Below the pieces are notes generated by a model, which saw nothing but the letters and a program-made list of their open reading frames with translations, did not search any database and was not told the origin of the DNA. Both the position numbers and the translations under genes were made by a program. Positions 5,653 to 27,535 of a DNA stretch of 33,434 bases are shown here, piece after piece. The stretch spans positions 1 to 33,434 of the forward strand of contig JAILBH010000026.1 in assembly GCA_024681195.1 (NCBI GenBank), given 5' to 3'. The number at the start of each line of letters is the position of its first letter. The first letter of the stretch is position 1. The DNA is from Treponema sp. Lineage in GTDB: Bacteria; Spirochaetota; Spirochaetia; Treponematales; Treponemataceae.

Positions 5653-6231
5653 ATGTTTGACTGGGATAGTGTTACAGAAAGAATAAGAGATTATACGGAG
5701 GCACATGTAAAGCCTTCCCGCTATGATCACAGTGTGCGCGTTGCCGAAATGTGCGCAAAGCTTTGTCGCCGTTATGGACTTGATGAAAACAAGGGATATC
5801 TTGCCGGTATTGGTCACGATATGTGCAAGGATATGCCTAAGGCTAAAATGCTTGAGACTGCGGCGCGCGACGGAGATCCAATCACAGATTTTGAAAAAAA
5901 GACTCCTTCTATTGTGCATGGTCGGGCTGCAGCTGTTATAATGAAGGAAAAGTTTGATATAACAGATCCTGATATTCTTGAGGCTGTTGCAAATCATGTT
6001 TCCTGCAGGCTTGGAATATGTGATCTTGGAAAAATTCTTTTTCTTGCAGATAAGATTGAACCTGGACGTCCTCAATCTACAAAGGAATACAGAGAAAATC
6101 TTATGAAGCTTCCACTGGATCAGATGTTAGCGTCGGTCCTTCAGAAAAACTATGAATATATTACGAACAAGGGTTTTGACGTTTACCCGGATACAAAAAA
6201 AATGATAGAATACTATCAGGGAAAGAAATGA
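5653..6231 (+). CDS. yqeK: HD-domain protein, YqeK-type bis(5'-nucleosyl)-tetraphosphatase
   Basis: RYDHSVRVAEMCAKL, GIGHDMCKDMP, NHVSCRLGICDLGKILFLADKIEPGR; follows nadD. Confidence 0.9.
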   Translation: MFDWDSVTERIRDYTEAHVKPSRYDHSVRVAEMCAKLCRRYGLDENKGYLAGIGHDMCKDMPKAKMLETAARDGDPITDFEKKTPSIVHGRAAAVIMKEKFDITDPDILEAVANHVSCRLGICDLGKILFLADKIEPGRPQSTKEYRENLMKLPLDQMLASVLQKNYEYITNKGFDVYPDTKKMIEYYQGKK

Positions 6232-8283: not shown

Positions 8284-8311
8284 TTGACAACAATATGAAT
8301 TTTAGTATAAT
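8284..8311 (+). promoter_or_regulatory. Perfect sigma70-type promoter for ispE (TTGACA-N16-TATAAT)
   Basis: TTGACA 8284-8289, TATAAT 8306-8311; CDS start 8320/8323. Confidence 0.85.
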
Positions 8312-8319
8312 ATGTAAAA

Positions 8320-9192
8320 TTGATGGATGAAATTTTTACTGAAAAGGCTTATGCCAAGGTAAATTTTAATCTAAGGGTTCTTCCTGTTCGTGAAGACGGA
8401 TATCACAATATAGAAAGTATATTTCAGACTATTGAGTTGTTCGACGAATTGGAAGTTTCTGTACTTGAAGAGTCAGGCTGTTTCGTTGACTGCAGTTCAA
8501 TTAAACTCCCCCTAAATAACACATTAACTTCAGCATATGATGCCTTCTGCCGTGTTGCAGGAACAAAGGTGCCGGGTGTTAAAATTGTGTTAAAAAAAGG
8601 AGTTCCTTCGGGCGGCGGTCTTGGCGGCGGATCTTCGGATGCAGCAGCATTGGTGAGAGTGTTGGAAAGAATCTGTAATATACAGCTTTCTGACAGTCAG
8701 CTTGAGTTTATTGCAGAGAAAACGGGAAGCGATGTTTTCTTCTTTATGAAATGCCGGCCGGATGGAACAGGATGTGCTCTTGTTTCTGGGCGTGGTGAAA
8801 AAGTAAAGATAATTAAGGGACGCACGGATTTGTTTCTTGTGCTGGTTTTTCCGGATGTCTGCAGCTCTACTAAAGAAGCTTATTCCTTAGTAGATGAAAC
8901 TTTAAAGTGTGAAAACAGTTGTAAATATCCTGCCTTTGAGGAGCTTGAAGGTGTTTACCAAAAAGCTCCATCTGACTGGATTTTTATGAATACGTTTACT
9001 CCTGCGTTGTGTGGCGTATACAGTGATTTATCAAGAGCGTTGAGTACGTTAAAAAATGCTGGTTCCGAGTTCTGCGACATGTCTGGTTCGGGTTCAACAT
9101 TATACGGGGTTTTTACAAAAAGGCAACAGGCCGAGGCTTGTTTGGAGCTTCTTAAATTGTCCTGGAATTGTGCTCTTGTTCGGTTGCTATAA
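8320..9192 (+). CDS. ispE: 4-diphosphocytidyl-2-C-methyl-D-erythritol kinase (start TTG 8320 or ATG 8323)
   Basis: [65 protein letters not shown]. Confidence 0.93.
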
Positions 9193-9218
9193 AAAAATGT
9201 TTTGGAGGTAATTGGCTT

Positions 9219-9497
9219 ATGCAAATTACAGAATTACGTATTCGAAAAGTCGAAGACGAAGGTAAGTTACGTGCTTATGTAACAGTAACTTTTGACAACT
9301 GCTTTGTGGTGCACAATGTTAAGATCATCGAAGGAAAAAGCGGCTTATTTATTGCCATGCCTAGCAGAAAAACTGCTAACGGTGAGTATAAGGATGTAGC
9401 TCATCCAATAAGCCCTGAGTTCCGTACAGAACTGCAGAATAAGATTATTGCTGAGTATGAAGCAGGTCATGTTGAGGTTGGCGGCGAAGCTGACTAA
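9219..9497 (+). CDS. spoVG: SpoVG family protein
   Basis: [58 protein letters not shown] at 9204-9208, so start 9219 rather than 9168. Confidence 0.95.
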
Positions 9498-9518
9498 CTG
9501 AAACTATATATATGACTT

Positions 9519-9589
9519 TCTCCGCTGGTGTAATGGTAGCACACGAGCTTTTGGTGCTTAGAGTCCGGGTTCGAATCCTGGGTGGAGAA
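9519..9589 (+). tRNA. tRNA-Gln (anticodon TTG), CCA not encoded
   Basis: Acceptor TCTCCGC/GTGGAGA, anticodon loop TTTTGGT (TTG), T-arm CCGGG-TTCGAAT-CCTGG, discriminator A. Confidence 0.92.
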
Positions 9590-9594
9590 TTATT

Positions 9595-9609
9595 CTCTGC
9601 GTTGCAGAG
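9595..9609 (+). other. Short perfect hairpin between tRNA-Gln and rplY
   Basis: CTCTGC-GTT-GCAGAG with no following T tract. Confidence 0.6.
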
Positions 9610-9645
9610 GCAAAAATATTTTATGGATATAAGGAGCTTTACGAA

Positions 9646-10197
9646 ATGAGTAAGCAGACTTTGAACGCAAAAGTTCGCACTGCATCTGGTAAAACAGCTG
9701 CTAAAAAACTTCGCCAAGTAGGTAGTATCCCAGCCGTTATGTACAACGAAAAGGGCGAAGCTACTATGCTCGAAGTGAACGAAGTTGAATTCAACAAGAT
9801 TTGGAGAACAATTACTCCAACAACTTCAATCAATCTTGTCGTTGACGGCAAAGAAAACCTCGCTTTGATTAAGGATACTGAATACAATATCCGCACAGAC
9901 AAGGTTTTGCATGCAGATTTCTTTGTACCTGCAGCAGATGAAAAACTTGTTATGAAAATCAAGGTTCATTACACTGGTACACCAGCTGGTGTTTTGAAGG
10001 GTGGTTTTATGAAAGAGCGCAACAACGAAATCAAAATTAAGGCTGCTATTGCAGATCTTCCAGAAACAATTGTTGCAGACATTTCTAAGATTAACGCAAG
10101 TGAAGCTTTGCGCGTAAAGGATCTTGAAGTAGGTAAGAACGTTGAAATTCTTACAGACAAGGAGCTTCCTTTGGTAACAGTTTCACCAGCACGCTAA
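9646..10197 (+). CDS. rplY: 50S ribosomal protein L25/Ctc
   Basis: LNAKVRTASGKTAAKKLRQVGSIPAVMYNEKGEA... HADFFVP; SD AAGGAG. Confidence 0.93.
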   Translation: MSKQTLNAKVRTASGKTAAKKLRQVGSIPAVMYNEKGEATMLEVNEVEFNKIWRTITPTTSINLVVDGKENLALIKDTEYNIRTDKVLHADFFVPAADEKLVMKIKVHYTGTPAGVLKGGFMKERNNEIKIKAAIADLPETIVADISKINASEALRVKDLEVGKNVEILTDKELPLVTVSPAR

Positions 10198-10230
10198 TTT
10201 TGTTTAAGTACAATTAAGCAATTTTACAGG

Positions 10231-10268
10231 CACGGGTGGTAGACAGTAGTTTATCATCCGTGTTTTTT
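10231..10268 (+). terminator. Rho-independent terminator of the rplY transcript
   Basis: CACGGGTG-N16-CATCCGTG followed by T7. Confidence 0.85.
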
Positions 10269-10272
10269 TATT

Positions 10273-10278
10273 TATAAT
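10273..10278 (+). promoter_or_regulatory. Candidate -10 box for tilS
   Basis: TATAAT 7 nt before the tilS ATG; -35 weak (TTATCA, 16-bp spacing, inside the upstream terminator). Confidence 0.5.
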
Positions 10279-10285
10279 ATAGTAA

Positions 10286-11650
10286 ATGGAACTAACAATG
10301 CCCGGTAACGGTGAATTTACAAAAGAGGTAATGCAGGGACTTTCTAAATGCGGTGTGAACCTGAAGCTGCTTGCGGCTCAAAAAAAATCAATTGGGGTTG
10401 CCGTATCGGGAGGGGCAGATTCTGTATCTCTGCTTGTTTCGCTTTGTTCCATTTGTAAAGATTATTCTATTCCTTTAAAAGTAATCACAGTAAATCATTA
10501 TATTCGTAGTGATAAAGAAACCTGCGGCGATGTTAAATTTGTAAAAAGTCTTTGCGGCTCTTTGTGTGACAGAGGCTTTAAGCTTACTTTAAAAATCCAC
10601 GAATTAAAAAAAGGTGCTGCTCTGGAGCTTGCCCAGTCCCAGAAATGCGGTGTGGAAGCTGCAGCGCGTGAACTCAGATACGCTGCTTTTGAAGGTTTTA
10701 TAAACGAAGAAAAACTTGAATACTTATGTCTTGCCCACAATAAAAATGACCAGATGGAAACTCTGCTTATGCGGTTTTTGCAGGGGGCAGGAGGGAATTC
10801 AAAAAACGGAATTCCTTGTGTGCGTCAAAAATATATAAGACCTCTGCTTTGGACGGAGCGTTCTAAAATAGAAGCTTATCTAAAAGAAAATAAAATAGAA
10901 TGGTGTACCGACAGTTCAAACACCGATACAGCTTATCTTCGAAACCGGATCCGCGCTAAACTCATTCCGCTATTAAACGACCAGTTTGAAGGCTGGGATA
11001 AGGCTGTGCTTTCGGGTTCAGAAAAATCAGAAATGGATGCAGATTGCCTCCAGACTCTGGCCCAGAACTTTTTTGAAAAACACGCCCGCTGTGGCAAAGA
11101 AATAAAGCTTGATGCTCCTGAGTTTTACAGCCTGCACCGTGCACTCAAAATGCGTGTGCTGCTGCTTGCGTTTAATGCTCTTGGAGTAAGCTCCCGTGTG
11201 CCGTTTGTTTTTTTACGGGATATATGCGATTATGCCGATAATTATAATGGAGGAGAATCGCAAAAAACTTTTGCAGAACTAAGCGTAATCTGTAAAAAAA
11301 AGGAAGTTTTAATAAAAAAAGCATGCCAGGTACAGAAGGAAATAGTTTTTTCTGTTATAATAGAAGAATCTGGAATGTACGAGCTTCCTTTTTGCCGGGT
11401 TGAAGTTCCGCAAGCTCTTGATTTTCCTGTCCTGCTTAGAAGCTGGCAAATGGATGATTCTATTCAGACGGCAGATGGAGGAACCAAAAAGGTTAATGAC
11501 GTTCTTTCAGACTGGCATGTAGAGGAATCTCTTAAAAAGTATATTCCTGTAGTACAGGCCCTTAAAGAGAGGGAGCAGAGAATATTATGCATTTTGGGAA
11601 GCTGTATGGGTTACAGTGACTGGATTGTTAAAATGGAATGTGAAAAATGA
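10286..11650 (+). CDS. tilS: tRNA(Ile)-lysidine synthase
   Basis: PP-loop VAVSGGADSVSLLV, AHNKNDQMETLLMRFLQGAG, IRPLL...DSSNTDTAYLRNRIR. Confidence 0.93.
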   Translation: MELTMPGNGEFTKEVMQGLSKCGVNLKLLAAQKKSIGVAVSGGADSVSLLVSLCSICKDYSIPLKVITVNHYIRSDKETCGDVKFVKSLCGSLCDRGFKLTLKIHELKKGAALELAQSQKCGVEAAARELRYAAFEGFINEEKLEYLCLAHNKNDQMETLLMRFLQGAGGNSKNGIPCVRQKYIRPLLWTERSKIEAYLKENKIEWCTDSSNTDTAYLRNRIRAKLIPLLNDQFEGWDKAVLSGSEKSEMDADCLQTLAQNFFEKHARCGKEIKLDAPEFYSLHRALKMRVLLLAFNALGVSSRVPFVFLRDICDYADNYNGGESQKTFAELSVICKKKEVLIKKACQVQKEIVFSVIIEESGMYELPFCRVEVPQALDFPVLLRSWQMDDSIQTADGGTKKVNDVLSDWHVEESLKKYIPVVQALKEREQRILCILGSCMGYSDWIVKMECEK

Positions 11651-13737
11651 AAGCGATTAGAGTTTGTTTAGTTTTAGGTTTTGTTCTTTTTGCAGGTTTT
11701 TCTGTGTTTGCACAAAGCAGCTCTGCAGCTGCCAACCGAAGAACCGCCGAACGCTGTTTGAGTCTTTCTGAAAATTTTATGCTTAATTCCGACTGGCAGA
11801 ATGCGTTGAATCAGGCAGAGCTTGGCCTTTCTTATGATGATTCAATTTCGGATCTTTTTTATGTTAAGGCCGCTTCTCAGAGTAATCTTGGTGTTCGCAA
11901 GGCAGATGTAATTGAAACAATAAAAGAATCTTTTGCAAAAGATAATTGGGTAAACTATACAAAAAACAGTGCGCGAATTCTTTATGCAGATATGCTTAGT
12001 GATACAGGACTTTATGACCAGTCACTTGCAATTCTGGATTCCGAACCGCTTTTGTATTCTGCTGATTCTGAATTTATAAGAATCAAAAACTATTACAGAC
12101 TTGGAACTACAGATTCTATTGCTCAGGCAAGAACAAGGCTTAATTCTTCACGTAAGATTTATCCAAAGGATGAACGTTTTCCAAAGCTTTTCTTTATGTT
12201 TGAGTTTGCCTTTATGAGTTATGCTGAGAGAACAGGAACTCCTTATGAAGTCCCGGAAATTGTAAGAACAATTACCAACTCTTATACGGTTTCTATTCCA
12301 GATTATTCTTCTGCAAATGTTGAGTCAGAAATTCTTGCTCTTATGTTTTGCGAACCGGAACAGCAGAAAAGACTCTTAAAAGCTGTAGGAGAAAAAAATC
12401 AGAACAATCCGACTTTTGCTTATGCAGGATTAAAAACAGGAGTTATTTCAGAAGAAAAAGCCTTTAATCTTTTCTTTGATTCATCAAACGGTTCTTATTC
12501 ACTTGGGCTTTTGGAAGACTTTGGACTTTTGCTCAAGGATGAAGAACTGATTCAAAACTTTAAACAGCGCATAGCTTCACTTGAAGGAACTGTTTATATA
12601 GATAATGACCTTGATCTTCAGTCCGAAATTGTTGTTACTTATGAAAGAGGAAGAGCCCGTACAATCAGCTATGATAAAAATATGGACGGAATTCTTGAGA
12701 TTTTTGCAACCTGTGATTTTGGTGCTCCCGTTTCTCTTTTCTTCTCTGATTCAAAGCTTGATTTATTTTATGAGTTTTATCCATACGTAAGCCGTGTTGT
12801 AGATAATACCAGCGGAAATGTTTATCACTTTTTGACAAATGAATATTCTTACAATCCTTTTGAGATGACAGTTGATACATTGTTCTCTCGTTATGAAGTT
12901 GAATTTTTTGTTCCTTATATTGATCAGGAAATAGAAATCCCTGATGAATTTATGCTTGCAAAAAATGCTTCGTCGCTCGAGGTTGCAACAAAAGAGCGCC
13001 GCAATTCCCGTGTAAGCTACACAATTTTTGAAGGATGTCCTGTTTATGCAGTATTCCTTGATTCTGGTTCGCGCTATGCTTATGCTTCAATCGAAAATAG
13101 TTATCCTTTTGTCCGTTATGTTGATTATGATAATGATGGTGTTTATGAAACTTCTGAAACCTTTGACATGGATACCGAGAATAAATATTCAGATGCCCAG
13201 AATGTTGAGCTTATAAAAAATATTTTTGGCAGCAATACTTTTAGCGAAAAGCTTTATCTTAAGAAGGTTCAGATTGACCGCGACGGAAATACAATCGTAG
13301 AATTTTCTGAAGAATACCTTGGCTATAATGGAAAGATTTCTTCCTGGGATGCAGATGAAAACGGTGTACTTGATTATGAATATATCCGCTATCCAGATGG
13401 TGCTGACGGAGTTTTGTTAGAAGAGACTATCATTTACAATGAAAACGGTGATGAATATCTTTCCATAAAAAATCAGAATGGAGTACCAACAGCTATTCGT
13501 TCAGAAGGAAAAGATGTTGAAGTCTTTAAGGGACAGAATGAAAACTTTTTCTGGATTGAAGAAAAGGGTGGTGACCTTGAAGAAACTGCAATCTTGAATA
13601 ATGTTTCCGGCGGGGTAGAGCAGGGGGCTGTTCGAGTTGTTCAGCCTGATGATGCACAACGCTTTTCTGTTATTAAGGTTGGAAACGGAATATTTTGCAA
13701 AAAGCTTTACTCTTTAGTAGCTGGAGATGAAGAGTAA
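11647..13737 (+). CDS. Large exported protein with signal peptide, TPR-like N-terminal region and Asp-rich calcium-loop-like motifs; function unknown
   Basis: MKAIRVCLVLGFVLFAGFSVFAQ signal peptide; DADENGVLDYE, DYDNDGVYE, YDKNMDGILE motifs; ATGA overlap with tilS. Confidence 0.75.
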   Translation: MKAIRVCLVLGFVLFAGFSVFAQSSSAAANRRTAERCLSLSENFMLNSDWQNALNQAELGLSYDDSISDLFYVKAASQSNLGVRKADVIETIKESFAKDNWVNYTKNSARILYADMLSDTGLYDQSLAILDSEPLLYSADSEFIRIKNYYRLGTTDSIAQARTRLNSSRKIYPKDERFPKLFFMFEFAFMSYAERTGTPYEVPEIVRTITNSYTVSIPDYSSANVESEILALMFCEPEQQKRLLKAVGEKNQNNPTFAYAGLKTGVISEEKAFNLFFDSSNGSYSLGLLEDFGLLLKDEELIQNFKQRIASLEGTVYIDNDLDLQSEIVVTYERGRARTISYDKNMDGILEIFATCDFGAPVSLFFSDSKLDLFYEFYPYVSRVVDNTSGNVYHFLTNEYSYNPFEMTVDTLFSRYEVEFFVPYIDQEIEIPDEFMLAKNASSLEVATKERRNSRVSYTIFEGCPVYAVFLDSGSRYAYASIENSYPFVRYVDYDNDGVYETSETFDMDTENKYSDAQNVELIKNIFGSNTFSEKLYLKKVQIDRDGNTIVEFSEEYLGYNGKISSWDADENGVLDYEYIRYPDGADGVLLEETIIYNENGDEYLSIKNQNGVPTAIRSEGKDVEVFKGQNENFFWIEEKGGDLEETAILNNVSGGVEQGAVRVVQPDDAQRFSVIKVGNGIFCKKLYSLVAGDEE

Positions 13738-15352
13738 AATGAAGCTTAAACAATTTACCGGCTGCTTAGTATTTTTTATTTCTGCAATTTTATTCTTTGG
13801 CTGTAAGTCTTTTGAGCAGCCCGACAGTGTTCAAAAACCTCTCGATTATACCGACCAGGATGTTATAGAAAACGAAATCAATAATATTCATGAGCTTTTA
13901 AAAACTGAAAGTACAAAGGCTTTGTTCCATGCCTGTCTTCTTGGAAACGAAGACGTTTTAAAAGAATGCCGGGAAGCTGTAAATAAAGAAGCGTTCGAAA
14001 AAGAAGATTTTTCAAAACGAGTTGTTCTTTTAAAATCTTTGCAGAGTTCCGGAGATTATTCAGAAGAAACAATTAAGAATTATCAGGAAGCTTTGAAAAA
14101 TATGTATCAGGATGTCCCGGGATATAATGTAGATAAAGCTAAGCTTCCAAAAACTACAGCCAACTGTATTGATGCTACTGTAACTGTATGGGTAGATCAG
14201 GGCTACAAAGTTCAGAATGGAGCCGGCTATAAAGATAATGTAATTGGTTCAGGATTTTTTATTGATAAGCGCGGGTACATAATCACAAATCATCATGTAA
14301 TTCAAGAGGTTGTAAATCCTAAACGAAAATCCTCCTGCAAAGTTTATATCCGTCTTCCATCTGATATGGAAAAAATGATACCGGCAAAGGTTGTGGGCTA
14401 TGATTCAGTGCTGGATCTTGCGCTTTTAAAAGTAGCTTATGAACCGGCTTTTGTATTTGAACTTGGCGACAGTTCTGCACTTGAAGTTGGCGACAAGATT
14501 TCTGCAATAGGAACTCCAATTGGTCTTGAAGGCACTATTACAAGTGGAATTATTTCTTCTACTTCCAGAAGTCTTATTACCATTGGAACTGTTTTCCAGA
14601 TTGATGCGGCTGTAAACGCAGGAAACTCAGGCGGTCCGATTATTGATAATGACAGAAAGGTTCAGGCAGTGGTTTTTGCGGGAATGCTTGACTCACAGGG
14701 CTTAAACTTTTCAATTCCTGTTGAATACCTTAAACAGGAGCTTCCTTTATTATATGCCGGTGGAGAAGTTAAGCATGGCTGGCTTGGAGCTTATGGTCAT
14801 ACAAAAAAATATAATAATGAAAATGCGGGACTTGAAGTTCAGTATGTTATTCCAGGCAGTGCCGCAAGTTATTCCGGATTCCAGATTGGTGATGTTATTA
14901 AAAGCATAGATGGTGTTGAAATAAAAACTCTTGAGGCGTTTCAAGTTGTATGCCTTAAGTATGAAACAGGAACTATGCTTAACTGCAAAGTAGATCGTGA
15001 CGGAAAGCTTATAGATGTTGTAATTTATCTTGAAAAGAGACCGGCTTCCCCTCTTAAAGAAGCTTTTAAAAGTGATTTTGTAGATAATTCTTTTATTCCA
15101 ATTTTTGGTATGAAGATGACACGTTCATCGACAACAAACAAAAAATTATATAGAATAGAGTATGTTCTAGAGGGCAGCATTGCAGATCAAAACGGATTTT
15201 CTGAAAACGATAATCTTGAATTGTATGATGTTTCCTTTGATGATGAAAACGAAATATTTTATGTTGTAATTGTGGTACAGAGAAGAAAGAAAGGTTTCCT
15301 TGATATTCAGATGGGACTAGGAACCTCTTATGACAATCCTAATTATTTCTAA
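13727..15352 (+). CDS. HtrA/DegP-like S1C serine protease with PDZ domain, predicted lipoprotein
   Basis: Lipobox-like ILFFGC; triad regions TNHHVI, SVLDLALLKV, NAGNSGGPIID; PDZ VIPGSAASYSGFQIGDVIKSIDG. Start may be 13727 or 13739. Confidence 0.88.
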   Translation: MKSKMKLKQFTGCLVFFISAILFFGCKSFEQPDSVQKPLDYTDQDVIENEINNIHELLKTESTKALFHACLLGNEDVLKECREAVNKEAFEKEDFSKRVVLLKSLQSSGDYSEETIKNYQEALKNMYQDVPGYNVDKAKLPKTTANCIDATVTVWVDQGYKVQNGAGYKDNVIGSGFFIDKRGYIITNHHVIQEVVNPKRKSSCKVYIRLPSDMEKMIPAKVVGYDSVLDLALLKVAYEPAFVFELGDSSALEVGDKISAIGTPIGLEGTITSGIISSTSRSLITIGTVFQIDAAVNAGNSGGPIIDNDRKVQAVVFAGMLDSQGLNFSIPVEYLKQELPLLYAGGEVKHGWLGAYGHTKKYNNENAGLEVQYVIPGSAASYSGFQIGDVIKSIDGVEIKTLEAFQVVCLKYETGTMLNCKVDRDGKLIDVVIYLEKRPASPLKEAFKSDFVDNSFIPIFGMKMTRSSTTNKKLYRIEYVLEGSIADQNGFSENDNLELYDVSFDDENEIFYVVIVVQRRKKGFLDIQMGLGTSYDNPNYF

Positions 15353-15367
15353 ACTACGGAGCTTTAA

Positions 15368-17173
15368 ATGATAGAAATGAAATATAAGCGCAACTTTTGT
15401 ATTGTTGCACACATAGACCATGGAAAATCAACTTTGTCTGACAGACTCATTCAAAAGGCCAAGATTATTGATGATCGCAAGATGATGAATCAGATTCTTG
15501 ATAATATGGATATTGAACGAGAACGTGGAATTACAATAAAGAGTCAGGCTGTAACAATTCCTTACCATGCGAAAGATGGTCATGACTATGAATTAAACTT
15601 TGTAGATACTCCGGGTCACGTAGACTTTAGCTATGAGGTTTCGCGTGCTATTGCTTCCTGCGAAGGCGCCCTGCTTTTGATTGACGCTACACAGGGTGTT
15701 GAAAGTCAGACTGTTTCAAATATGTATATGGCGCTGGAACACGATCTTACTATGGTTCCGGTAATCAATAAGATTGACCTTGCTTCGGCCGATATTCCTT
15801 CGTGCAAGAACCAGATTGATAACGAGCTGGGACTGGATTCTGAAGATGCAATGTGTGTTTCTGCAAAGACAGGGGAAGGAATTGATGAGCTTATGGAGGC
15901 AATTGTTACAAAATTTCCTCCTCCAAAGGGAGATCCAAATGCTCCTCTTGCTGCTCTTATTTTTGACTGCCATTATGATATTTACCGAGGTGTAGTTGTT
16001 CACGTAAGAGTTATGGAAGGTCGTCTTAAGACCGGGGATCTTATAAAGATGATGAGCAGCGGTACTCAATATAAAGTAGAGCAGTGTGGTATTTTTAAGA
16101 TTAACTATGAAGAAACCGGAGTACTGGAAGCCGGCGATGTAGGTTATATTATTTCGGGCTTAAAAACTGTAAGCGATGTAAAGGTAGGTGATACAATTAC
16201 ATCTGTGGAAAATGGAGTCAGTCAGCCTTTGCCTGGATTTAAAGAAGTTAAGCCTGTTGTTTATTCTTCTATCTATCCAATGGATTCAAATGATTACGAA
16301 GAACTAAAAGACAGCATGGAAAAGCTTAAGCTTAACGATGCAAGCCTTATCTACGAAAAAGATAATTCTCTTGCACTTGGTAACGGTTTTCGCTGCGGCT
16401 TTTTAGGGCTTTTGCATCTTGAAATTATTCAGGAACGTCTGGAACGTGACTTTGATCAGGCTGTAATATTTACAGCTCCATCTGTACGCTATCTCTTGCA
16501 TCTGCAAAACGGCGAAGATATGTATATTGATAATCCGTCGGAATATCCTCAGGGACGCATTGCAGACGCAGAAGAACCATATATTAAGGCAAGTATCATA
16601 ACTCCTGCAGAATATCTTGGTTCAATTATGTCGCTGTGTACCGAAAAACGTGGTGTTCAGACTAACATGCAGTATCTTGATACAAAGCGTGTAGAACTTT
16701 CCTATGAAATGCCTTTGAGCGAAGTTTTATTTGATTTTTATGACCGTCTTAAAAGCTATAGCCGTGGTTATGCTTCTTTTGATTATGAGGTTATAGGCTA
16801 TAGACCAACTGATCTTGTAAAGGTAGATATTCTGCTTAATGGAAAAATGGTTGATGCTCTGTCTCTGCTCACCTTTAAGGCAAATGCAGTTGACCGTGCC
16901 CGCAAGGTTTGTGAACGCCTTAAGGGAGAAATTTCGCGCCAGCAGTTTAAGGTTGCCATTCAGGGTGCAATCGGTAGTCAGATTATTGCCCGCGAAACTG
17001 TAAACCCTGTACGTAAGGATGTTCTTGCCAAGTGTTATGGTGGTGATATTACCCGTAAAAGAAAGCTTTTGGAAAAGCAGAAGGAAGGTAAAAAGCGCAT
17101 GAAGATGATTGGCGATGTTGAGCTTCCACAGAGCGCCTTCCTTGCAGTTCTTAAAGAAAACGATGACGAGTAA
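15368..17173 (+). CDS. lepA: Elongation factor 4
   Basis: NFCIVAHIDHGKSTLSDRL, DTPGHVDFSYEVSR, GFRCGFLGLLHLEIIQERLERDF. Confidence 0.97.
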   Translation: MIEMKYKRNFCIVAHIDHGKSTLSDRLIQKAKIIDDRKMMNQILDNMDIERERGITIKSQAVTIPYHAKDGHDYELNFVDTPGHVDFSYEVSRAIASCEGALLLIDATQGVESQTVSNMYMALEHDLTMVPVINKIDLASADIPSCKNQIDNELGLDSEDAMCVSAKTGEGIDELMEAIVTKFPPPKGDPNAPLAALIFDCHYDIYRGVVVHVRVMEGRLKTGDLIKMMSSGTQYKVEQCGIFKINYEETGVLEAGDVGYIISGLKTVSDVKVGDTITSVENGVSQPLPGFKEVKPVVYSSIYPMDSNDYEELKDSMEKLKLNDASLIYEKDNSLALGNGFRCGFLGLLHLEIIQERLERDFDQAVIFTAPSVRYLLHLQNGEDMYIDNPSEYPQGRIADAEEPYIKASIITPAEYLGSIMSLCTEKRGVQTNMQYLDTKRVELSYEMPLSEVLFDFYDRLKSYSRGYASFDYEVIGYRPTDLVKVDILLNGKMVDALSLLTFKANAVDRARKVCERLKGEISRQQFKVAIQGAIGSQIIARETVNPVRKDVLAKCYGGDITRKRKLLEKQKEGKKRMKMIGDVELPQSAFLAVLKENDDE

Positions 17174-17185
17174 GGCTTTTACGCT

Positions 17186-18799: not shown

Positions 18800-18801
18800 G
18801 A

Positions 18802-20310
18802 TTAGTATGAGCTGCTCATGAAGTTGTCGAAGTATACTCCAATAAAGTTATTTTCAAGCTTTGGACTTGCAAAAATAACTGCCTGAGAAGCATTTTCATC
18901 AACATCTGCAATTAAGAGCGAGTAGTTGCTTTCCTTCTCTTCTTCTACGGCTTCTTCTGTTCCTTCTGCAGGCTCTTCTTTGCCTTCTGCAATGTACTGA
19001 AGAACGGCAATGTCTCCATTAAGTACAATAGGATTAGAATATTCGCCTAATTTGATAGAGAAGGCATTCTTTAAGAAGTCTTCATTTTTGTCTGCAGAAG
19101 CAAGAGCAGTATTTGATTCTGTATCCATTGTATCAAAGAACTTTACAGCTCCGTAGTTTAATGGAGATGCAGGGACATCAGAAACTGTTACATCTGCATA
19201 ATTTGCTGCTGCTTCGTCAAATGAAGTCTGCTTAGCTTCCTTAATGAACTTGTTTGCTATATCTGTGTAATAATCTTCGATGATTGTTTTTTCATAGATT
19301 GTAATATAGTTCTTAACATCTTTGATTGTTTCTTCTGAAGTAAAATCCGGGCTAACAGGAGCAGCGTTATTCTTGAAGATTGTGAAACCAATTGTTGTTT
19401 CAAGAGCAGGACTTACTTCACCTGCAGCAAGACCAGTTACCTTAATAAGAGAATCTTTGTCATTAAGAATGTTTTCAATCTGATACTGAGAATTGTTAGA
19501 AAGCTTTCCATTTGAGTCGCTGTAGTTTTTATCTGAATATTCAGCAACAGCATCTTCAAAAGTAATCTGTCCCTTGGCAATTCTTGAAGTAACCTTGTTT
19601 GCAATTTCTTTTGTTTTTACTGTTATAACAGACATGTCATATTTAATAAACTTGTCTGAGTTAGCCTTACCAAACTTAACCTGTTCTTCTTCCGGATAAT
19701 TGTTGGTAGAGAAGGTTGCCATCTTAAATGAACGGAATTCTTTTGCAAAAGTATCAAGGAATTCTGTTTCCGCATCTGCTGCTTTAAGACCAAAAAGCTT
19801 GTAGCCACAGAAGCTTTCTGTTGTACCAAAGTTATCATCAAAATAGCGGCCAGTATAAAGAGACTCTTTTATGCTTTTTGTAAGATTATCGATATAAGAA
19901 GAATCTGCCTGCATATAAGCTTTCTTTGAGAATTTTCCATCTGCATCTGTAAAGTAAACCTTAACTTTGCGGTTAATGGAATCTTGAGGAACTTCATAAC
20001 CAGCAGCCTTAAGAATTTCTTCCTGTGCATATTTTACTACTGTGGAATTGAACGCATAACTATAAATTGTAAATTGATTTGATGAGTTTATTTCCATTCC
20101 ATTGTTTCTGTACATTTCTGCATACTGTGAAAGGAAATTTGTAAAATCAGAACCATATTCATAGCTGATTTTTTTGCCATCGTATTTACCAAAAACAAGT
20201 CCCTCCTGCTGGCCTGCTGTTCCAGATAAAGATGATGGAAGTACGAATGCGACAAAACAAATAATAAGAATGATTGACGCACCGAATGTGTAAAGTACAC
20301 CCTTTTTCAT
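18802..20310 (-). CDS. SurA/PpiD-like peptidyl-prolyl isomerase (parvulin type), membrane anchored
   Basis: N-terminal TM, SurA_N-like region, parvulin-like TSRIAKGQITFEDAVAEYSDKNYSDSNGKLSN. Confidence 0.7.
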   Translation of the reverse strand: MKKGVLYTFGASIILIICFVAFVLPSSLSGTAGQQEGLVFGKYDGKKISYEYGSDFTNFLSQYAEMYRNNGMEINSSNQFTIYSYAFNSTVVKYAQEEILKAAGYEVPQDSINRKVKVYFTDADGKFSKKAYMQADSSYIDNLTKSIKESLYTGRYFDDNFGTTESFCGYKLFGLKAADAETEFLDTFAKEFRSFKMATFSTNNYPEEEQVKFGKANSDKFIKYDMSVITVKTKEIANKVTSRIAKGQITFEDAVAEYSDKNYSDSNGKLSNNSQYQIENILNDKDSLIKVTGLAAGEVSPALETTIGFTIFKNNAAPVSPDFTSEETIKDVKNYITIYEKTIIEDYYTDIANKFIKEAKQTSFDEAAANYADVTVSDVPASPLNYGAVKFFDTMDTESNTALASADKNEDFLKNAFSIKLGEYSNPIVLNGDIAVLQYIAEGKEEPAEGTEEAVEEEKESNYSLLIADVDENASQAVIFASPKLENNFIGVYFDNFMSSSY

Positions 20311-20350
20311 ATTGTTACCCTTTATATATTAGTTTTAAAATAATTAAACT

Positions 20351-20379
20351 ATTTTAACACAGAATCGACTTGTAGTCAA
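20351..20379 (-). promoter_or_regulatory. Promoter for the SurA/PpiD-like gene (TTGACT-N17-TAAAAT)
   Basis: Minus-strand TTGACT (20379-20374), 17-bp spacer, TAAAAT (20356-20351); the gene has SD AAAGGG. Confidence 0.6.
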
Positions 20380-20475
20380 TTTACGGTTTTTACAGTTCAA
20401 AAGAACAAAAAAAGTTTCAATTTTTTTAAATTTGGGTTTATAATATAAGAATCTACTTTATAAAGGAGTGTCTTT

Positions 20476-20697
20476 ATGGCAAAATCAAAAGATTATTTTG
20501 GATTAGGAAGACTTGTAAGCATTATTCTTGCAATTATTCCTTTTACAGCCTGGATTTGCGGTTTTCTTACAAGATTTAAGGAAGGAAAAATCATCGCAGG
20601 TCTTATCCGTTTAATTTTCGGATTCACAATTGTATGGGTTCTTGACCTGATCTTAATGATTCTTCAGGGAAAAATCCTCCGTCTTCTTAACTGCTAG
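20476..20697 (+). CDS. Small conserved-looking membrane protein (73 aa)
   Basis: Two hydrophobic segments; TATAAT at 20439-20444 and SD AAAGGAG upstream of ATG. Confidence 0.7.
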   Translation: MAKSKDYFGLGRLVSIILAIIPFTAWICGFLTRFKEGKIIAGLIRLIFGFTIVWVLDLILMILQGKILRLLNC

Positions 20698-20753
20698 TTT
20701 CTGGTAGTAGAAGCAAAGAATTAATTAATTAAAAAACGAAAGAAAATTTATAA

Positions 20754-20829
20754 GCCCGAAGATTTTCTGACGGCGAGCAAACCTCATCTTCGTCCCGTTT
20801 GCTCACTAGCAGAAAATCTTCGGGCATTT
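20754..20829. terminator. Long hairpin between convergent genes, probable bidirectional terminator
   Basis: GCCCGAAGATTTTCTG 20754-20769 / CAGAAAATCTTCGGGC 20810-20825 (16-bp perfect), inner stem GAGCAAAC 20775-20782 / GTTTGCTC 20797-20804. Confidence 0.8.
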
Positions 20830-20842
20830 TAAATTTAATTCT

Positions 20843-21970
20843 TTATCTGCTTGTGCTTAATTTATTTTTGGCTTCGTATCTTGCAACTGCTTCACTAATC
20901 AAAAGCTCTACAAGGTCTGAAAACTTAAGTCCTGCTGCATCACACATTTTTGGGAACATGCTTATTGGTGTAAAGCCAGGCATTGTGTTTATTTCGTTCA
21001 GATAAACTGCTTTTGTATCTCGGTCAATAAAGAAATCTACTCTGGAAAGACCAGTTGCGTCCAAAACCTTATATGCAGCACAGGCTGTCTTACGGATTTT
21101 TTCAAGGTCATTTTCAGAAAGCTCTGCAGGAATCAAAAGCTTTGCCCCATCCGGATCATTGTATTTTGCATCAAAATCATAGAAGGTATGGCTTGGAGCA
21201 ATTTCGCCCGGAATATAGGCAACAACATCTTCAACATCACTATCTGCAGGGAAGGTAACAGAGTTGCCGGTAACGCTGCATTCAATTTCACGTGCATTGA
21301 TTGCTTTTTCTACCAGAACCTTATCATCCCAGTTAAAGGCTTCCATAATTGCAAAAGAAAGCTCCCTGCGGTTATTTGCCTTTGAGGCACCGTTAGAGCT
21401 TCCTGCACAGCAAGGCTTTACAAACATAGGATAACCAAGCTCTTTTTCGGTTTCTTCTATAACGGCATCATAAACTACGCTATCAAGTACAACAGAACGT
21501 TTTACACATACATAAGGAACAACAGGAAGTCCTACGCTCTGCCATATCATCTTTGTCTTTTCTTTATCCATTGTGATGGCAGAAGAAAGATGTGTACAAC
21601 CAACATAAGCAATATCTGCCATTTCAAATAATCCCTGAATGGTTCCATCTTCGCCGTAGGTTCCGTGAAGGGCTGGGAAAACAACATCAATATCTAAAGC
21701 TTTTCCGCCGCAAACAAAGGCATTCTTCTTTGCGCCCGGAATTATACTTACAGCCTTTGCAGAATCTTCTTTGATTGTGAGGGCGGCTTTTTCATCACTG
21801 CAAATTCTTTTGTATTCTGCTTCATCCTGGAGGTACCAGCGGCCATCTTTTGTAATACCAATTAAAATCACCTGGTTTTCTTTTTTGATTCCGCGGGTAA
21901 TTGCTGCTGCAGAAATAAGGCTTATTTCATGCTCACCTGAGCGGCCTCCGTATATTACTGCTATGTTCAT
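20843..21970 (-). CDS. ddl: D-alanine--D-alanine ligase
   Basis: IAVIYGGRSGEHEISLISA, VFPALHGTYGEDGTIQGLFE, MFVKPCCAGSSNGASK, NEINTMPGFTPISMFPKM. Confidence 0.95.
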   Translation of the reverse strand: MNIAVIYGGRSGEHEISLISAAAITRGIKKENQVILIGITKDGRWYLQDEAEYKRICSDEKAALTIKEDSAKAVSIIPGAKKNAFVCGGKALDIDVVFPALHGTYGEDGTIQGLFEMADIAYVGCTHLSSAITMDKEKTKMIWQSVGLPVVPYVCVKRSVVLDSVVYDAVIEETEKELGYPMFVKPCCAGSSNGASKANNRRELSFAIMEAFNWDDKVLVEKAINAREIECSVTGNSVTFPADSDVEDVVAYIPGEIAPSHTFYDFDAKYNDPDGAKLLIPAELSENDLEKIRKTACAAYKVLDATGLSRVDFFIDRDTKAVYLNEINTMPGFTPISMFPKMCDAAGLKFSDLVELLISEAVARYEAKNKLSTSR

Positions 21971-23724
21971 AGTGAAAAAATCTCCTTTAATGCTTTGCGT
22001 GCCTCTGTTATTTCATCATAAGGCATAACATGGTCTTTATAAATAATACTGTTTTCGTGTGATTTACCAAGCAGAAGAACAATGTCCCCTTTTTTTGCCA
22101 TCTTAAAGGTCTGGCGGATTGCTTGAGGTCTGTCGTGAATTATAAACAGATTTTCATCCATAACCTTGCCTTCTTTAACAGCTCCTTCTGCAATCATTTT
22201 AAGAAGCTCTACCGGATCTTCGCCGCGGGGATCTTCGTCTGCAAGAACAATTACATCACAAAAACGGGCTGCAATTTGTCCCTGAAGAGGTCGTTTGGTA
22301 AGGTCTCTTTCTCCACCGCTTCCAAAGACTGCAAAGATTCTGCCGTTACAGCGTTTGCGGATTGGAGGAAAGATAGTTTCAAAGCTCGAAGGTGTATGAG
22401 CGTAATCTACTATAAGTTCAAAATCCTGACCTTGATCAATTACTGTCATGCGTCCCTTGATTGGAGTAAAATCACAGATTTTTTCTGCAAGCTCGCTAAA
22501 GCTTTTGCCTGTTACACTGCTTACGGCAGTAATTGCGGCCATAAGGTTATAGGCATTAAAGGCACCCGGAAGAGGCGCTTTTACACTAAAGCGGCTTTTT
22601 GGACGAGGCTGAACAGGATCGTAATTATCCGGATAAATTGCGGTTTCTCCGTCTGCCTCTACATCAAAGGTAAGGCCGTAGGTTGCAGCTGCAATGTTTC
22701 GTGCAGTCATATAGCGGAGGTTGTCCGGAATTGCAGGAAGCGGAGTTGCATTGCCGCCTGTTTCGGCTGCAGCTTTACCGGCTTTTCCTTCTGTCGTAAA
22801 ACCGTATACCGGATGACTTGTTGAATCAATAAAATATGTTGCAGAAGGGTCTTCCAGATTTACAATCCCAATTGAATTGATTTTCTGTTTTACACCTGCA
22901 ATTGTTTTTATATGACTGTGTTTGTCCAGAGCTCGGAAAAGGTTTGCCTTGTCTGAACGGTAGGTTTCAAAGTTTTTATGAAATTCAAGATGCTCAAGAG
23001 TTACGTTCATAAAAACACCGCAGTCAAAAAGAATGTTTCCGCAACGGTTTAATTTTGCAGAAAGCCCGTGAGATGAAGTTTCTACTACAGCATATTTACA
23101 GCCGTTTTCGAGCATTTCGTTTAAGTGGTGCTGAATTATCGGGGCTTCTGGTGTGGTCTGATGCTGTGGATTTGGCTGAGCATCTCCTCCAAAGGAATAT
23201 TCAACTGTAGAAATAAAGCCTGCTTTTTCTCCACAGGCTCTGAGTAACTGCCAGATAAAGCTTACCGTGCTGGACTTTCCTTCTGTACCTGTAACACCAA
23301 TTACAATAAGCCGTTCGCTTGGATTATCATAAAAGCAGGAAGAAAGCGGAGCCATAGAAAAACGTGCGTCAGGAACATTTATGAGGGCAGGTGCAAACTT
23401 TGGAGTTTCATCGCTTAGTGCATTTTTCATTGTTCTTTTAATGATTGCTTCGGCAACATCTTCCTGCTGGGATTTAGAAAGCTTTCCCTGGAAGACTACT
23501 GCATTTGCACCTGCCAGAATGGCCTGAGCAATATAATTATTTCCATCTGTATGAGTGCCTGGTAACGCAAAATAAAGGGAGTCTTTGCCGGCTTCGCGGG
23601 AGTCAAAAACCAGGTTGGTAACAGGAATATTATTTATTTCTGATAAATCGTCGATTTTAGTACCATCTGCCGCCACCACTGCGTTTTCGAACGCCGGCAG
23701 AATCTGTGAAAGTTGTTTTGTCAT
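21967..23724 (-). CDS. murE: UDP-N-acetylmuramoyl-L-alanyl-D-glutamate--diamino acid ligase
   Basis: VIGVTGTEGKSSTVSFIWQLL, ETSSHGL, VDYAHTPSSFE, FGSGGERDLTKRPLQG, LADEDPRGEDP. Confidence 0.93.
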   Translation of the reverse strand: MTKQLSQILPAFENAVVAADGTKIDDLSEINNIPVTNLVFDSREAGKDSLYFALPGTHTDGNNYIAQAILAGANAVVFQGKLSKSQQEDVAEAIIKRTMKNALSDETPKFAPALINVPDARFSMAPLSSCFYDNPSERLIVIGVTGTEGKSSTVSFIWQLLRACGEKAGFISTVEYSFGGDAQPNPQHQTTPEAPIIQHHLNEMLENGCKYAVVETSSHGLSAKLNRCGNILFDCGVFMNVTLEHLEFHKNFETYRSDKANLFRALDKHSHIKTIAGVKQKINSIGIVNLEDPSATYFIDSTSHPVYGFTTEGKAGKAAAETGGNATPLPAIPDNLRYMTARNIAAATYGLTFDVEADGETAIYPDNYDPVQPRPKSRFSVKAPLPGAFNAYNLMAAITAVSSVTGKSFSELAEKICDFTPIKGRMTVIDQGQDFELIVDYAHTPSSFETIFPPIRKRCNGRIFAVFGSGGERDLTKRPLQGQIAARFCDVIVLADEDPRGEDPVELLKMIAEGAVKEGKVMDENLFIIHDRPQAIRQTFKMAKKGDIVLLLGKSHENSIIYKDHVMPYDEITEARKALKEIFSL

Positions 23725-23730
23725 AATTTT

Positions 23731-23759
23731 ATTATAACGTATTGCATTGGCATTGTGAA
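23731..23759 (-). promoter_or_regulatory. murE promoter, minus strand: TTCACA-N17-TATAAT, 6 nt before ATG
   Basis: TTCACA (23759-23754), TATAAT (23736-23731), start codon at 23724. Confidence 0.8.
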
Positions 23760-23762
23760 CTG

Positions 23763-23791
23763 TTGCGAAGTAAACCTCATTACAATATAAT
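23763..23791 (+). promoter_or_regulatory. queD promoter: TTGCGA-N17-TATAAT, 6 nt before ATG
   Basis: TTGCGA 23763-23768, TATAAT 23786-23791, ATG 23798. Confidence 0.75.
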
Positions 23792-23797
23792 CAAACT

Positions 23798-24199
23798 ATG
23801 TTTGAAGTACGCGTAGAAGCAGATTTTAGTGCTGCTCATTTTTTAAAAGACTATAACGGCAAGTGTGAAAATCTTCACGGCCACAATTATAAGGTATTTG
23901 CTCACGTAAAGGGAAGAATTCTGAATGAAGGCGGCATGCTTCTTGATTTTACAAAATTAAAGGGAGCTCTGCGTTCTGTATGTGCAAAGTTAGACCATAC
24001 TAACTTAAATGATATGGAAGTTTTTGAACAGAACCCAAGTGCCGAGCGTATTGCAATGTTTGTTTATGATGGAATTGTTTCTGAGCTTGCAGGGCAGGGA
24101 ATTGATTTAGCTTATACACCAGGCAAGAAAGAGGCTTTTCTTTTTGCAGTTGATGTTTTTGAAACCGAAACCAGCCGGGCAAGATATTGTGTAGAGTAG
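23798..24199 (+). CDS. queD: 6-carboxytetrahydropterin synthase / 6-pyruvoyl-tetrahydropterin synthase family
   Basis: FSAAHFLKDYNGKCENLHGHNYKV, LLDFTKLKGALRSVCAKLDHTNLND. Confidence 0.93.
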   Translation: MFEVRVEADFSAAHFLKDYNGKCENLHGHNYKVFAHVKGRILNEGGMLLDFTKLKGALRSVCAKLDHTNLNDMEVFEQNPSAERIAMFVYDGIVSELAGQGIDLAYTPGKKEAFLFAVDVFETETSRARYCVE

Positions 24200-24208
24200 T
24201 GTCCTTTT

Positions 24209-24973
24209 TTAGAATCTCATAGGAACGCCCATTCCATCAAGCTCTTTTTTTATCTGTCCGACAGTATAAGTTCCGTTATGAACCATGCTTGCAATGAGTG
24301 CGGCATCTGCTTTGCCTTCTGTGAGCGCGTCTGCAAGGTGCTGTGGGGTTCCGCCGCCACCGCTTGCAATTACAGGAACATTTACGTTTTCAGAAATCAA
24401 GCGGGTAAGCTCAATGTCGTAGCCGTTTTTGGTTCCGTCGGCATCCATTGAGTTTAATACAATTTCTCCGGCGCCAAGGCTTACGCCCTTCTTTGCCCAT
24501 TCGAGAGCATCAAGACCTGTGTCTACGCGACCGCCGTTTATAGTTGTTCCAAAGCCGCTTGGTTTTGTAGGATCGCGTCTTACATCCATTCCAAGAACAA
24601 TACTCTGGTTTCCGAATACGCGTGCGCCCTCTGTGATGAGGCCCGGATTCTTTACTGCCTGACTGTTGAGCGAAACCTTTTCGGCACCGGCAAGAATTGT
24701 AGAACGGATATCTTCTATAGTGCCGATTCCTCCACCAACGCAGAACGGAATGAATACCTGCTGTGCTACGCGAGAAATCAAATCAAGGATAGGGCCACGA
24801 CCGCGGGCAGAGGCGATGATGTCATAAAAAACAAGCTCGTCAACACCCTGGCGGTAATATTCAGCAGCCATTTCTACCGGATCACCAATATCTATATTAT
24901 TCTGAAACTTAACGCCCTTTGTAGTGCGTCCGTCCTTTACATCAAGACAGATTATTATTCGTTTTTTTAGCAT
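24209..24973 (-). CDS. hisF: Imidazole glycerol phosphate synthase subunit HisF
   Basis: [68 protein letters not shown]. Confidence 0.95.
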
Positions 24974-24975
24974 AT

Positions 24976-25605
24976 TTATATCTCACAAAAATTCTTAAGA
25001 ATCTGGATTCCCATTTCACCGCTTTTTTCGGGGTGGAACTGGGTTGCAAAAATGTTTCCGCTTTGAATTACAGACGGAACCTTAATTCCATAATCTGCGC
25101 TTGCTTTAATTACACTCGGGTCGCTCGGGCAGATTACATAACTGTGAACAAAATAAACGTCAAAATCATTTTTGATTCCTTTGAGGATAGGGCAGTTACC
25201 GTTTTCAAGGGTAAGGTTATTCCAGCCCATATGAGGAACCTTCATATTCTGGTTTTTGAGTTCAGGCTTAATTGAATAAAAATGCCTTATTTCGCCTTTT
25301 ACAAGACCAAGACATTCTGTGTCGCCTTCCTCTGAATGCTCAAAAATAATCTGTGAACCAACGCAGATTCCAAACAAAAGTTTTCCAGCCGCAACCTGTT
25401 CACGAACAAAAACATCGAAGCCGCTTTTTTTAAGCTCGCTCATAGCAAAAGCATCGTCGCCGTCGCCAGGGAACATAAAGCGGTCACAATCTGCCTTAGC
25501 AAGTTCTTCCGGATTTTTTGAAGTAACATAAGGAATGTTCAGGTATTCCAGAGCGCGTTCAAGACTTGTAATGTTACCTGCATTAAAATCTATAATTCCT
25601 ACCAT
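24976..25605 (-). CDS. hisH: Imidazole glycerol phosphate synthase subunit HisH
   Basis: [63 protein letters not shown]. Confidence 0.95.
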
Positions 25606-25612
25606 AGTTGTG

Positions 25613-25618
25613 ATTATA
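25613..25618 (-). promoter_or_regulatory. Candidate -10 box for hisH
   Basis: Minus-strand TATAAT 7 nt upstream of the hisH ATG. Confidence 0.5.
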
Positions 25619-25663
25619 GAAAAAAAACTAAAAATTTGGAACTGCAGGGTCGATAAATTCTAT

Positions 25664-25891
25664 ATGAAGATAAAAGAATTTTTCAATCTTGTTCTTGGGG
25701 TAGTAAAGGACTGGCACGTAATTGTTACTCTGGTTGTAATGCTTTTTGTTATGTGGGCAGCTAACTTTATTATTACTTACAGGAAGAAACCTCGTAAGGG
25801 CAAGAAAGGAAAGAAAGCCGCTCCGGCACCGGCTCCAAAGCCTGCAGAAGAAAAGACCGAAGAAAAAAAAGAAGAAGAAGCTTCGGAATAA
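25664..25891 (+). CDS. Small single-pass membrane protein with Lys/Ala/Pro/Glu-rich tail (75 aa)
   Basis: MKIKEFFNLVLGVVKDWHVIVTLVVMLFVMWAANFIITYRKKPRKGKKGKKAAPAPAPKPAEEKTEEKKEEEASE; ATG 25664 is the likely start (ORF-track start 25535 overlaps hisH). Confidence 0.65.
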   Translation: MKIKEFFNLVLGVVKDWHVIVTLVVMLFVMWAANFIITYRKKPRKGKKGKKAAPAPAPKPAEEKTEEKKEEEASE

Positions 25892-25951
25892 TCCCACCAT
25901 TTTTTTCTCTAAAACTTCCTGTTTTTAAATAAATTCGACTATATATAATGT

Positions 25952-27535
25952 ATGGAAGAATTTAAAATTCATGCTGATGACTCAATCTATGAAGATGATG
26001 AGGTTGCAAAGGCAGCCTGGGAAAAGTTTGGAATCCGTTATATGTTTCCGTGGCAGAGACTTGTTGTTGCAAATATCATGGAAGCATATGAAGCTTCTGA
26101 CTGCCAGAATGATGCTTTTTGTAAAGGAAGACAGATTGTTTTATTGCCTACAGGTGCAGGAAAGTCGCTGTGCTTTCAGGTTCCGGCTTTGCTATTGGAT
26201 GGACCAACTCTTGTAATTTACCCGCTTCTTGCACTCATGACAGATCAGCAGAGGCGCATGGAAGAAGGAAGTCTTAGAAGTGTAATGTTTAGGGGAGGGC
26301 AATCGGCAAAGGAACGTGAAGAAAATTTTAGAAAAATTAAAGAAGGGGCAAAAATCATAATTGCTAATCCTGAAGTCCTGCAGAATAAGAGTCTTGTTAA
26401 GCAGCTTAAGGAAGTGGGAATTTGTCATATTGCAATTGATGAAGCGCATTGTGTTTCTGAATGGGGAGATTCGTTCAGGCCGTCTTATCTTGGTCTTGGA
26501 GAAGTTTTAAACGAGCTTGCGGTTCCTGTAATTACGGCTTTTACAGCAACAGCGTCTCCTCCTGTTCTCTCTCGTGTTGCAGAAATTTTATTTGGAGGGC
26601 AGGCTCACGTTGTCCGAAGTGAAAGCGACCGCCCGAATATTCATTATTATGTAAGGAAGGCTGCTGTTAAGAAAAAAGAAGCTTTATACCTGGCTGCAAC
26701 AGAACAGCGTCCCATGATTATATTTTGTGGAACCCGTGGCAAGAGCGAGGATATGGCTCGTGAATTAAATTTTTGCTTTGGTGAAGGAACAGCAATGTTT
26801 TATCACGCGGGACTTGAACGTGAAGAAAAAGAATTTATTGAAAAGTGGTTTTATTCCAGTAAAGATGGAGTGCTTTGTGCAACCTGTGCTTATGGAATGG
26901 GTGTTGATAAGAAGGATATAAAAACTGTTGTGCATCTTGAGCCATCTGCGACTGCCGAAGCCTATATTCAGGAAGCGGGCCGTGGTGGAAGGGATGGTAG
27001 TGTTGCAAAGGCAATCTTACTTTGGAGTCTTTCAGACAGTATTGAATATTCAGTTTATAAGGCCGGTTCAAGGGAGGCGGCTCTTCGAGATTTTGCAGAA
27101 ACTAAAAGCTGCAGGCGTCAGGTGCTGTTGGATGCACTTGGAGCCGAACAGGCTGTTTGCAGTGGGTGTGATATTTGTGAAGGAATTGACTATGCGCCAT
27201 GTGACTGGGAGATTGCTTACAAGCTCATAAAAAAGAATCGTAACTATTATACAAAGGAGGATGCACAGGAAGAACACGCCTGGCGCATGAATAATATTTT
27301 AAGAAAAACGCTGGGGCTTAATGTATGGAATCATAATGACAGTGTAGAAACCTTTAGTCAGCTTATAAAAAGCGGACGCATTAAGAGTTCAGGTATTTTA
27401 TGGAAGGGCAGGCTAAGAATCGTAGAATCAAAAAAGGCATTGATTAAAAAAAAAGGCCCCGGAGTAGAAAACGTGCGTCGACAGGTTTCTTCAGCTGGCG
27501 GCGCATGTTTTCTACGGGAGGGGCCGTTTTTTTAA
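25952..27535 (+). CDS. recQ: RecQ-family ATP-dependent DNA helicase
   Basis: LLPTGAGKSLCFQVPALLL, AIDEAHCVSEWGDSFRPSY, FTATASP, QEAGRGGRDG, zinc cysteines CRRQVL...CSGCDIC. Confidence 0.9.
   Translation: MEEFKIHADDSIYEDDEVAKAAWEKFGIRYMFPWQRLVVANIMEAYEASDCQNDAFCKGRQIVLLPTGAGKSLCFQVPALLLDGPTLVIYPLLALMTDQQRRMEEGSLRSVMFRGGQSAKEREENFRKIKEGAKIIIANPEVLQNKSLVKQLKEVGICHIAIDEAHCVSEWGDSFRPSYLGLGEVLNELAVPVITAFTATASPPVLSRVAEILFGGQAHVVRSESDRPNIHYYVRKAAVKKKEALYLAATEQRPMIIFCGTRGKSEDMARELNFCFGEGTAMFYHAGLEREEKEFIEKWFYSSKDGVLCATCAYGMGVDKKDIKTVVHLEPSATAEAYIQEAGRGGRDGSVAKAILLWSLSDSIEYSVYKAGSREAALRDFAETKSCRRQVLLDALGAEQAVCSGCDICEGIDYAPCDWEIAYKLIKKNRNYYTKEDAQEEHAWRMNNILRKTLGLNVWNHNDSVETFSQLIKSGRIKSSGILWKGRLRIVESKKALIKKKGPGVENVRRQVSSAGGACFLREGPFF
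27455..27533. terminator. Very long hairpin inside the recQ 3' end, bidirectional terminator for recQ and the OmpA-family gene
   Basis: GGCCCC-gga-GTAGAAAAC-g-TG... paired with ...CA-t-GTTTTCTAC-ggga-GGGGCC; A9 on one side and T7 on the other. Confidence 0.8.

Follow-up and report, generated by a model that had tools for sequence, protein, structure and literature searches.

Analysis of a 33,434-nt stretch of DNA from Treponema sp. (GenBank assembly GCA_024681195.1, contig JAILBH010000026.1), hereafter the window, revealed operon-first genes in which a TATAAT hexamer ends six or seven nucleotides before the ATG, namely murE, queD, hisH and tilS, with ispE as a close variant. These genes very probably give rise to ordinary leaderless or near-leaderless mRNAs, transcribed from housekeeping promoters that abut their start codons. 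The promoter signal is position-specific, has a −35 partner, is absent from controls and is conserved among relatives. An original prediction, made from the letters of the window, had placed the start codons of all five genes 6–8 nt past TATAAT and described them as lacking a Shine-Dalgarno (SD) sequence; the spacing held for tilS (7 nt), murE (6 nt), queD (6 nt) and hisH (7 nt) but not for ispE, and inspection of the sequence confirmed that these same four genes lack an SD.

RNA polymerase at promoters of this kind normally starts about 7 nt past the −10 element. If a housekeeping σ70-type promoter directly abuts a start codon, transcription would begin about 7 nt past the last T of TATAAT, either at the A of ATG (gap 6) or one base earlier (gap 7), and because of this spacing of the polymerase start, the mRNA would have AUG at its very 5′ end or preceded by a single base. 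We propose that 70S ribosomes bind the 5′-terminal AUG with no SD pairing. This scheme would cover murE, queD and hisH, tilS in this genome, and roughly 5% of the genes of the genome, with the signal occurring in all congeneric genomes counted; ispE would deviate slightly, its leader being about 3–5 nt long.

A promoter signal at a fixed distance from start codons

The draft genome to which the window belongs spans 2.27 Mb in 230 contigs, is 77% complete and has a GC (guanine plus cytosine) content of 37%; the window makes up one of these contigs (C206). Its LepA protein best matches those of rumen and gut Treponema (92–96% identity), and the nearest named species found by LepA were T. berlinense, T. 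zioleckii and T. parvum, at 82%. Together with 60 further stretches of this genome (521 kb), the window formed a sample of 554 kb containing 411 called genes, 156 of them operon-first. Genes were called with a coding-potential model whose choice of start is blind to upstream motifs, the gap was counted as the nucleotides between the end of the −10 hexamer and the start codon, and the chance level for TATAAT and TAnnnT near starts was obtained from 300 dinucleotide-preserving shuffles.

A count of gaps across the genome, suggested with the original prediction as a check, gave a clear enrichment. TATAAT was found at gap 6 in eight and at gap 7 in eight of the 156 operon-first genes, compared with 0.6 per position farther upstream, and these 16 genes contrast with a shuffle mean of 0.87 and a maximum of 4. 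When the window's own genes were left out, 13 were seen and 1.18 expected (Poisson p 4.8e-10). Within the same sample, neither the reversed hexamer TAATAT nor genes inside operons showed a peak at gap 6–7. These counts bear on whether AT-rich upstream DNA could yield TATAAT followed by ATG by chance, as an artefact of base composition or codon usage. The GC content of 37% and the commonness of TATAAT in intergenic DNA would favour such an artefact, whereas the shuffles (about 0.9 against 16 seen), the peakless reversed hexamer, the much lower count at a phase-matched gap of 12–13 and the lack of a peak in a more AT-rich genome analysed by the same procedure (both described below) argue against it. 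The genome-wide tests already refute this explanation, to which we attach practically no credence.

With the looser pattern TAnnnT, an element was found at gap 6–7 in 32 of the 90 SD-less operon-first genes (9 in shuffles), and the start codon was ATG in 31 of these 32 candidates. Because 32 were seen and about 10 expected among the 411 genes sampled, these data suggest that about 5% of genes are leaderless. Among the candidates outside the window are such ordinary housekeeping genes as ispG, queA, murC, ruvB and those for a phosphofructokinase, a chemotaxis kinase of the CheA type and a helicase of the UvrD/PcrA type. The claim that the window holds two initiation modes is upheld as far as the enrichment at SD-less operon-first genes goes, but the picture is incomplete, because 58 of the 156 operon-first genes lack both signals, the SD as well as a −10 element at 6–7 nt; not every SD-less gene is thus leaderless. 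The accompanying statement that operon-internal genes of the window have SDs was true of part of them; no canonical SD precedes the genes at 5653, 6228, 11647, 13739 and 29162, and obgE is preceded by GGTGG only.

The median distance to the upstream neighbour was 90 bp for the leaderless candidates and 144 bp for genes with an SD (p 0.025), a difference that was not significant in T. parvum; the shorter distances would be in keeping with a compact genome. The idea that leaderless genes tend to encode non-secreted proteins was unsupported (hydrophobic N-terminus in 8 of 32 candidates and 24 of 66 SD genes, p 0.36; p 0.07 in T. parvum), and adenine enrichment after the start codon was rejected as a leaderless-specific signal, since it was equal in SD genes.

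The −10 elements have −35 partners

Alignment of the 32 candidates on their −10 elements revealed a second information peak at positions −23/−22/−21 from the first base of the element (T 84%, T 66%, G 41%), which corresponds to a −35 element separated from the −10 by the usual 17 bp, as well as a G two bases upstream of the −10 element (extended −10). At least four matches to TTGACA were present in 44% of candidates and 14% of controls, and the 22 candidates of T. parvum showed the same −35 peak. Because the −35 box lies at exactly 17 bp, we assign the elements to the σ70-type promoters on the strength of their sequence.

Conservation at individual loci

The identities of ispE, tilS, murE, queD and hisH in the window match their respective NCBIfam models (Table 1). 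For each gene, orthologous loci were compared in as many as 30 Treponema genomes, including the window's own, with starts placed by homology and with gap 25–28 as the control. At hisH, TAnnnT was present at gap 5–8 in 28 of 30 loci, compared with two at the control gap, and an SD-like sequence in two of 30. The corresponding values were 13 of 14 loci for murE (three at the control gap, one SD-like) and 21 of 30 for queD (three and four). The sequence around the −10 element varies between orthologs of these three genes, and the position of the element is constant. The arrangement is thus conserved at hisH, murE and queD; tilS, where it is unconserved, and ispE, which appears to have a short leader, are weaker cases. 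Selection might keep the leaderless start at hisH, murE and queD, and the near-leaderless start at ispE, because it subjects these genes to shared control of translation, with growth phase or stress, for instance, modulating 70S/IF3-sensitive initiation, an idea that we consider unlikely.

Only 3 bp separate the −35 box of murE from that of the divergent queD (window 23754–23768), and because of this closeness polymerase binding at one promoter probably competes with, and should exclude, binding at the other. hisH, in turn, is divergent from a small gene at 25664. The surroundings of these genes speak to another explanation, in which the −10 boxes are real but translation proceeds mainly from longer read-through transcripts, the adjacent promoter being minor. 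Such read-through could apply to tilS, which follows the co-directional rplY at a distance of 88 bp, with a terminator-like hairpin in the interval. In contrast, murE, queD and hisH have no adjacent co-directional gene upstream, and the −10 elements are kept at fixed spacing, so we regard a main role for read-through as very improbable.

Table 1. Predicted promoter elements, coding sequences and associated features in the window.
Feature	Position	Strand	Details
ispE −35, TTGACA	8284..8289	+	perfect consensus, 16-bp spacer; sequence; TTGAC-type −35 at almost every one of 30 congeneric loci
ispE −10, TATAAT	8306..8311	+	8 nt to TTG, 11 nt to ATG
ispE coding sequence from conserved ATG	8323..9192	+	NCBIfam TIGR00154
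Terminator-like hairpin and T-run after rplY	10231..10269	+	directly upstream of tilS −10 box; sequence
tilS −35, TTTATC	10250-10255	+	weak; sequence
tilS −10, TATAAT	10273..10278	+	gap 7 to ATG; sequence
tilS coding sequence	10286..11650	+	predicted leaderless in this genome only; NCBIfam TIGR02432
murE coding sequence	21967..23724	−	predicted leaderless; NCBIfam TIGR01085
murE −10, TATAAT	23731..23736	−	gap 6 to ATG
murE −35, TTCACA	23754..23759	−	17-bp spacer; sequence
queD −35, TTGCGA	23763..23768	+	17-bp spacer; sequence
queD −10, TATAAT	23786..23791	+	gap 6 to ATG
queD coding sequence	23798..24199	+	predicted leaderless; NCBIfam TIGR03367; start fixed, homology from residue 1
hisH coding sequence	24976..25605	−	predicted leaderless; match to NCBIfam TIGR01855 starts at residue 2; relatives homologous from residue 1
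hisH −10, TATAAT	25613..25618	−	gap 7 to ATG
hisH −35-like, TTCCAA	25636..25641	−	17-bp spacer; sequence; individually weak

ispE and the question of short leaders

For ispE, the original prediction relied on a TTG (8320) that does lie 8 nt past TATAAT, but this start was rejected, as an upstream TTG was found in only two of 30 congeneric loci. Since the TTG is unconserved, the relevant gap is that to the ATG, 11 nt, which is outside the range of 6–8. By analogy, the exclusion of TTG from mycobacterial leaderless starts (PMC4633059) also speaks against it. The ispE promoter is among just 12 perfect TTGACA-N15-19-TATAAT sequences in the whole genome (control 4) and is nearly always retained in the 30 congeneric loci, in which the start mostly aligns with the ATG at 8323. 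ispE is best read as an ultra-short-leader gene with an ATG start and a predicted leader of about 3–5 nt.

Short leaders, from a few nucleotides up to about 15, could be more general, with transcription starting slightly upstream or the true start codon lying a few codons downstream, and with unstructured, S1-assisted ribosome binding. The ispE gaps (11 nt here and mostly 5–11 in relatives), a second in-frame ATG four codons downstream of the tilS start and the 58 operon-first genes with neither signal are consistent with this explanation. However, homology begins at residue 1 in hisH and queD, the gaps are narrowly confined to 6–7 rather than spread over 8–15, and downstream in-frame starts with an SD, which would be a sign of miscalled starts, showed no surplus (three of 32 candidates compared with eight of 66 SD genes). 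We consider short leaders an unlikely account of the set as a whole and favour starts at or within one base of the AUG.

Spread across Treponema and other families

Whole-genome counts of TATAATN6-7ATG were compared with those of the phase-matched control TATAATN12-13ATG. The window's own genome contained 164 and 98, respectively, and 20 congeneric genomes contained 2907 and 1779, with an excess in 20 of 20. The same was true of the named strains T. parvum (107 and 70), T. berlinense (116 and 60), T. zioleckii (122 and 77) and Marseille-Q4130 (93 and 49), and T. parvum, when analysed with gene context, also showed the TAnnnT peak. Two families of the phylum, f23 and f32, had no excess as sampled (ratios 1.02 and 1.05), and the small-genome family f7 had barely any (1.14). 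An f7 genome (29% GC), which served as negative control in the same gene-context procedure, had no peak, with 14 SD-less genes having TAnnnT at gap 6–7 and 14 at gap 26–27. Among the groups tallied, the largest excess was found in G127 (family f8) and in G209 and G272 (family f11), at 5.2x and 2.9x; f8 and f11 are candidate lineages with more leaderless genes.

Several points nevertheless weigh against leaderless transcripts from abutting promoters. A TAnnnT-type element precedes tilS in only three of 14 usable congeneric loci, so that the arrangement is not conserved at this gene, and a 400-kb sample of T. parvum contained just one exact TATAAT at gap 6–7. The contrast with the 66 operon-first genes that have an SD, none of which has TAnnnT at gap 6–7, is in part a matter of geometry, since a −10 element spanning −7 to −13 takes the place of the SD. 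In addition, gene starts are as called, except those fixed by homology, and both the 5′ ends (transcription starts) and the mode of ribosome binding are predictions from DNA sequence.

Other observations in the window and its relatives

In several relatives (L063-L069), the tilS ATG directly follows a terminator-like hairpin and T-run, and in L064-L067 TATAAT lies just upstream of the hairpin, giving the order promoter, hairpin, U-run and AUG. This arrangement could possibly represent an attenuator-like start. recQ (25952) was considered as a sixth case and rejected, its TATAAT being only 2 nt before the ATG; the upstream sequence (window 25936-25952), TATATATAAT, ends 2 nt before the ATG, and an alternative TATATA would give gap 6, leaving the assignment ambiguous. 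In the window at 745-793, eight A's follow an SD-preceded ATG and lead to an early stop, and the lipoprotein-like signal sequence encoded there runs on in another frame into the coding sequence at 794-1885. A homopolymer frameshift, phase variation or an assembly error are the alternatives for this oddity.

Comparison with known leaderless systems

The leaderless class, which in the literature found has been measured in this phylum only in Leptospira, is extended by our predictions to gut and oral Treponema. No transcription start-site map for Treponema was found in the literature searched; conservation at the level of single genes makes the prediction directly testable in cultivated species such as T. 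parvum and T. berlinense. For annotation, SD-based start callers can misplace leaderless starts, and the promoter and start codon of such genes cannot evolve independently.

Leaderless initiation of translation is already known, and the Treponema genes are well-supported further members of this class. Leaderless ("TA-led") genes have been predicted in six of 18 Spirochaetes genomes, at 1.8–6.9% of genes (Zheng et al. 2011, PMC3160421), a range in line with our estimate of about 5%. There, as here, TAnnnT/TATAAT about 12 bp before the start codon without an SD was read as leaderless; in contrast to that study, ours follows the signal gene by gene across orthologs, with its −35 box, and in Treponema, a genus unnamed in its main text. 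In Leptospira interrogans, of the same phylum, differential RNA-seq identified about 440 mRNAs with a 5′ untranslated region shorter than 10 nt, half of them shorter than 2 nt (PMC5243855), so that leaderless mRNAs are measured there and predicted here. A further difference is that no promoter motif at a constant distance from the start site was reported for Leptospira. Finally, in mycobacteria the leaderless state is largely conserved among orthologs (PMC4633059), as it appears to be in Treponema.
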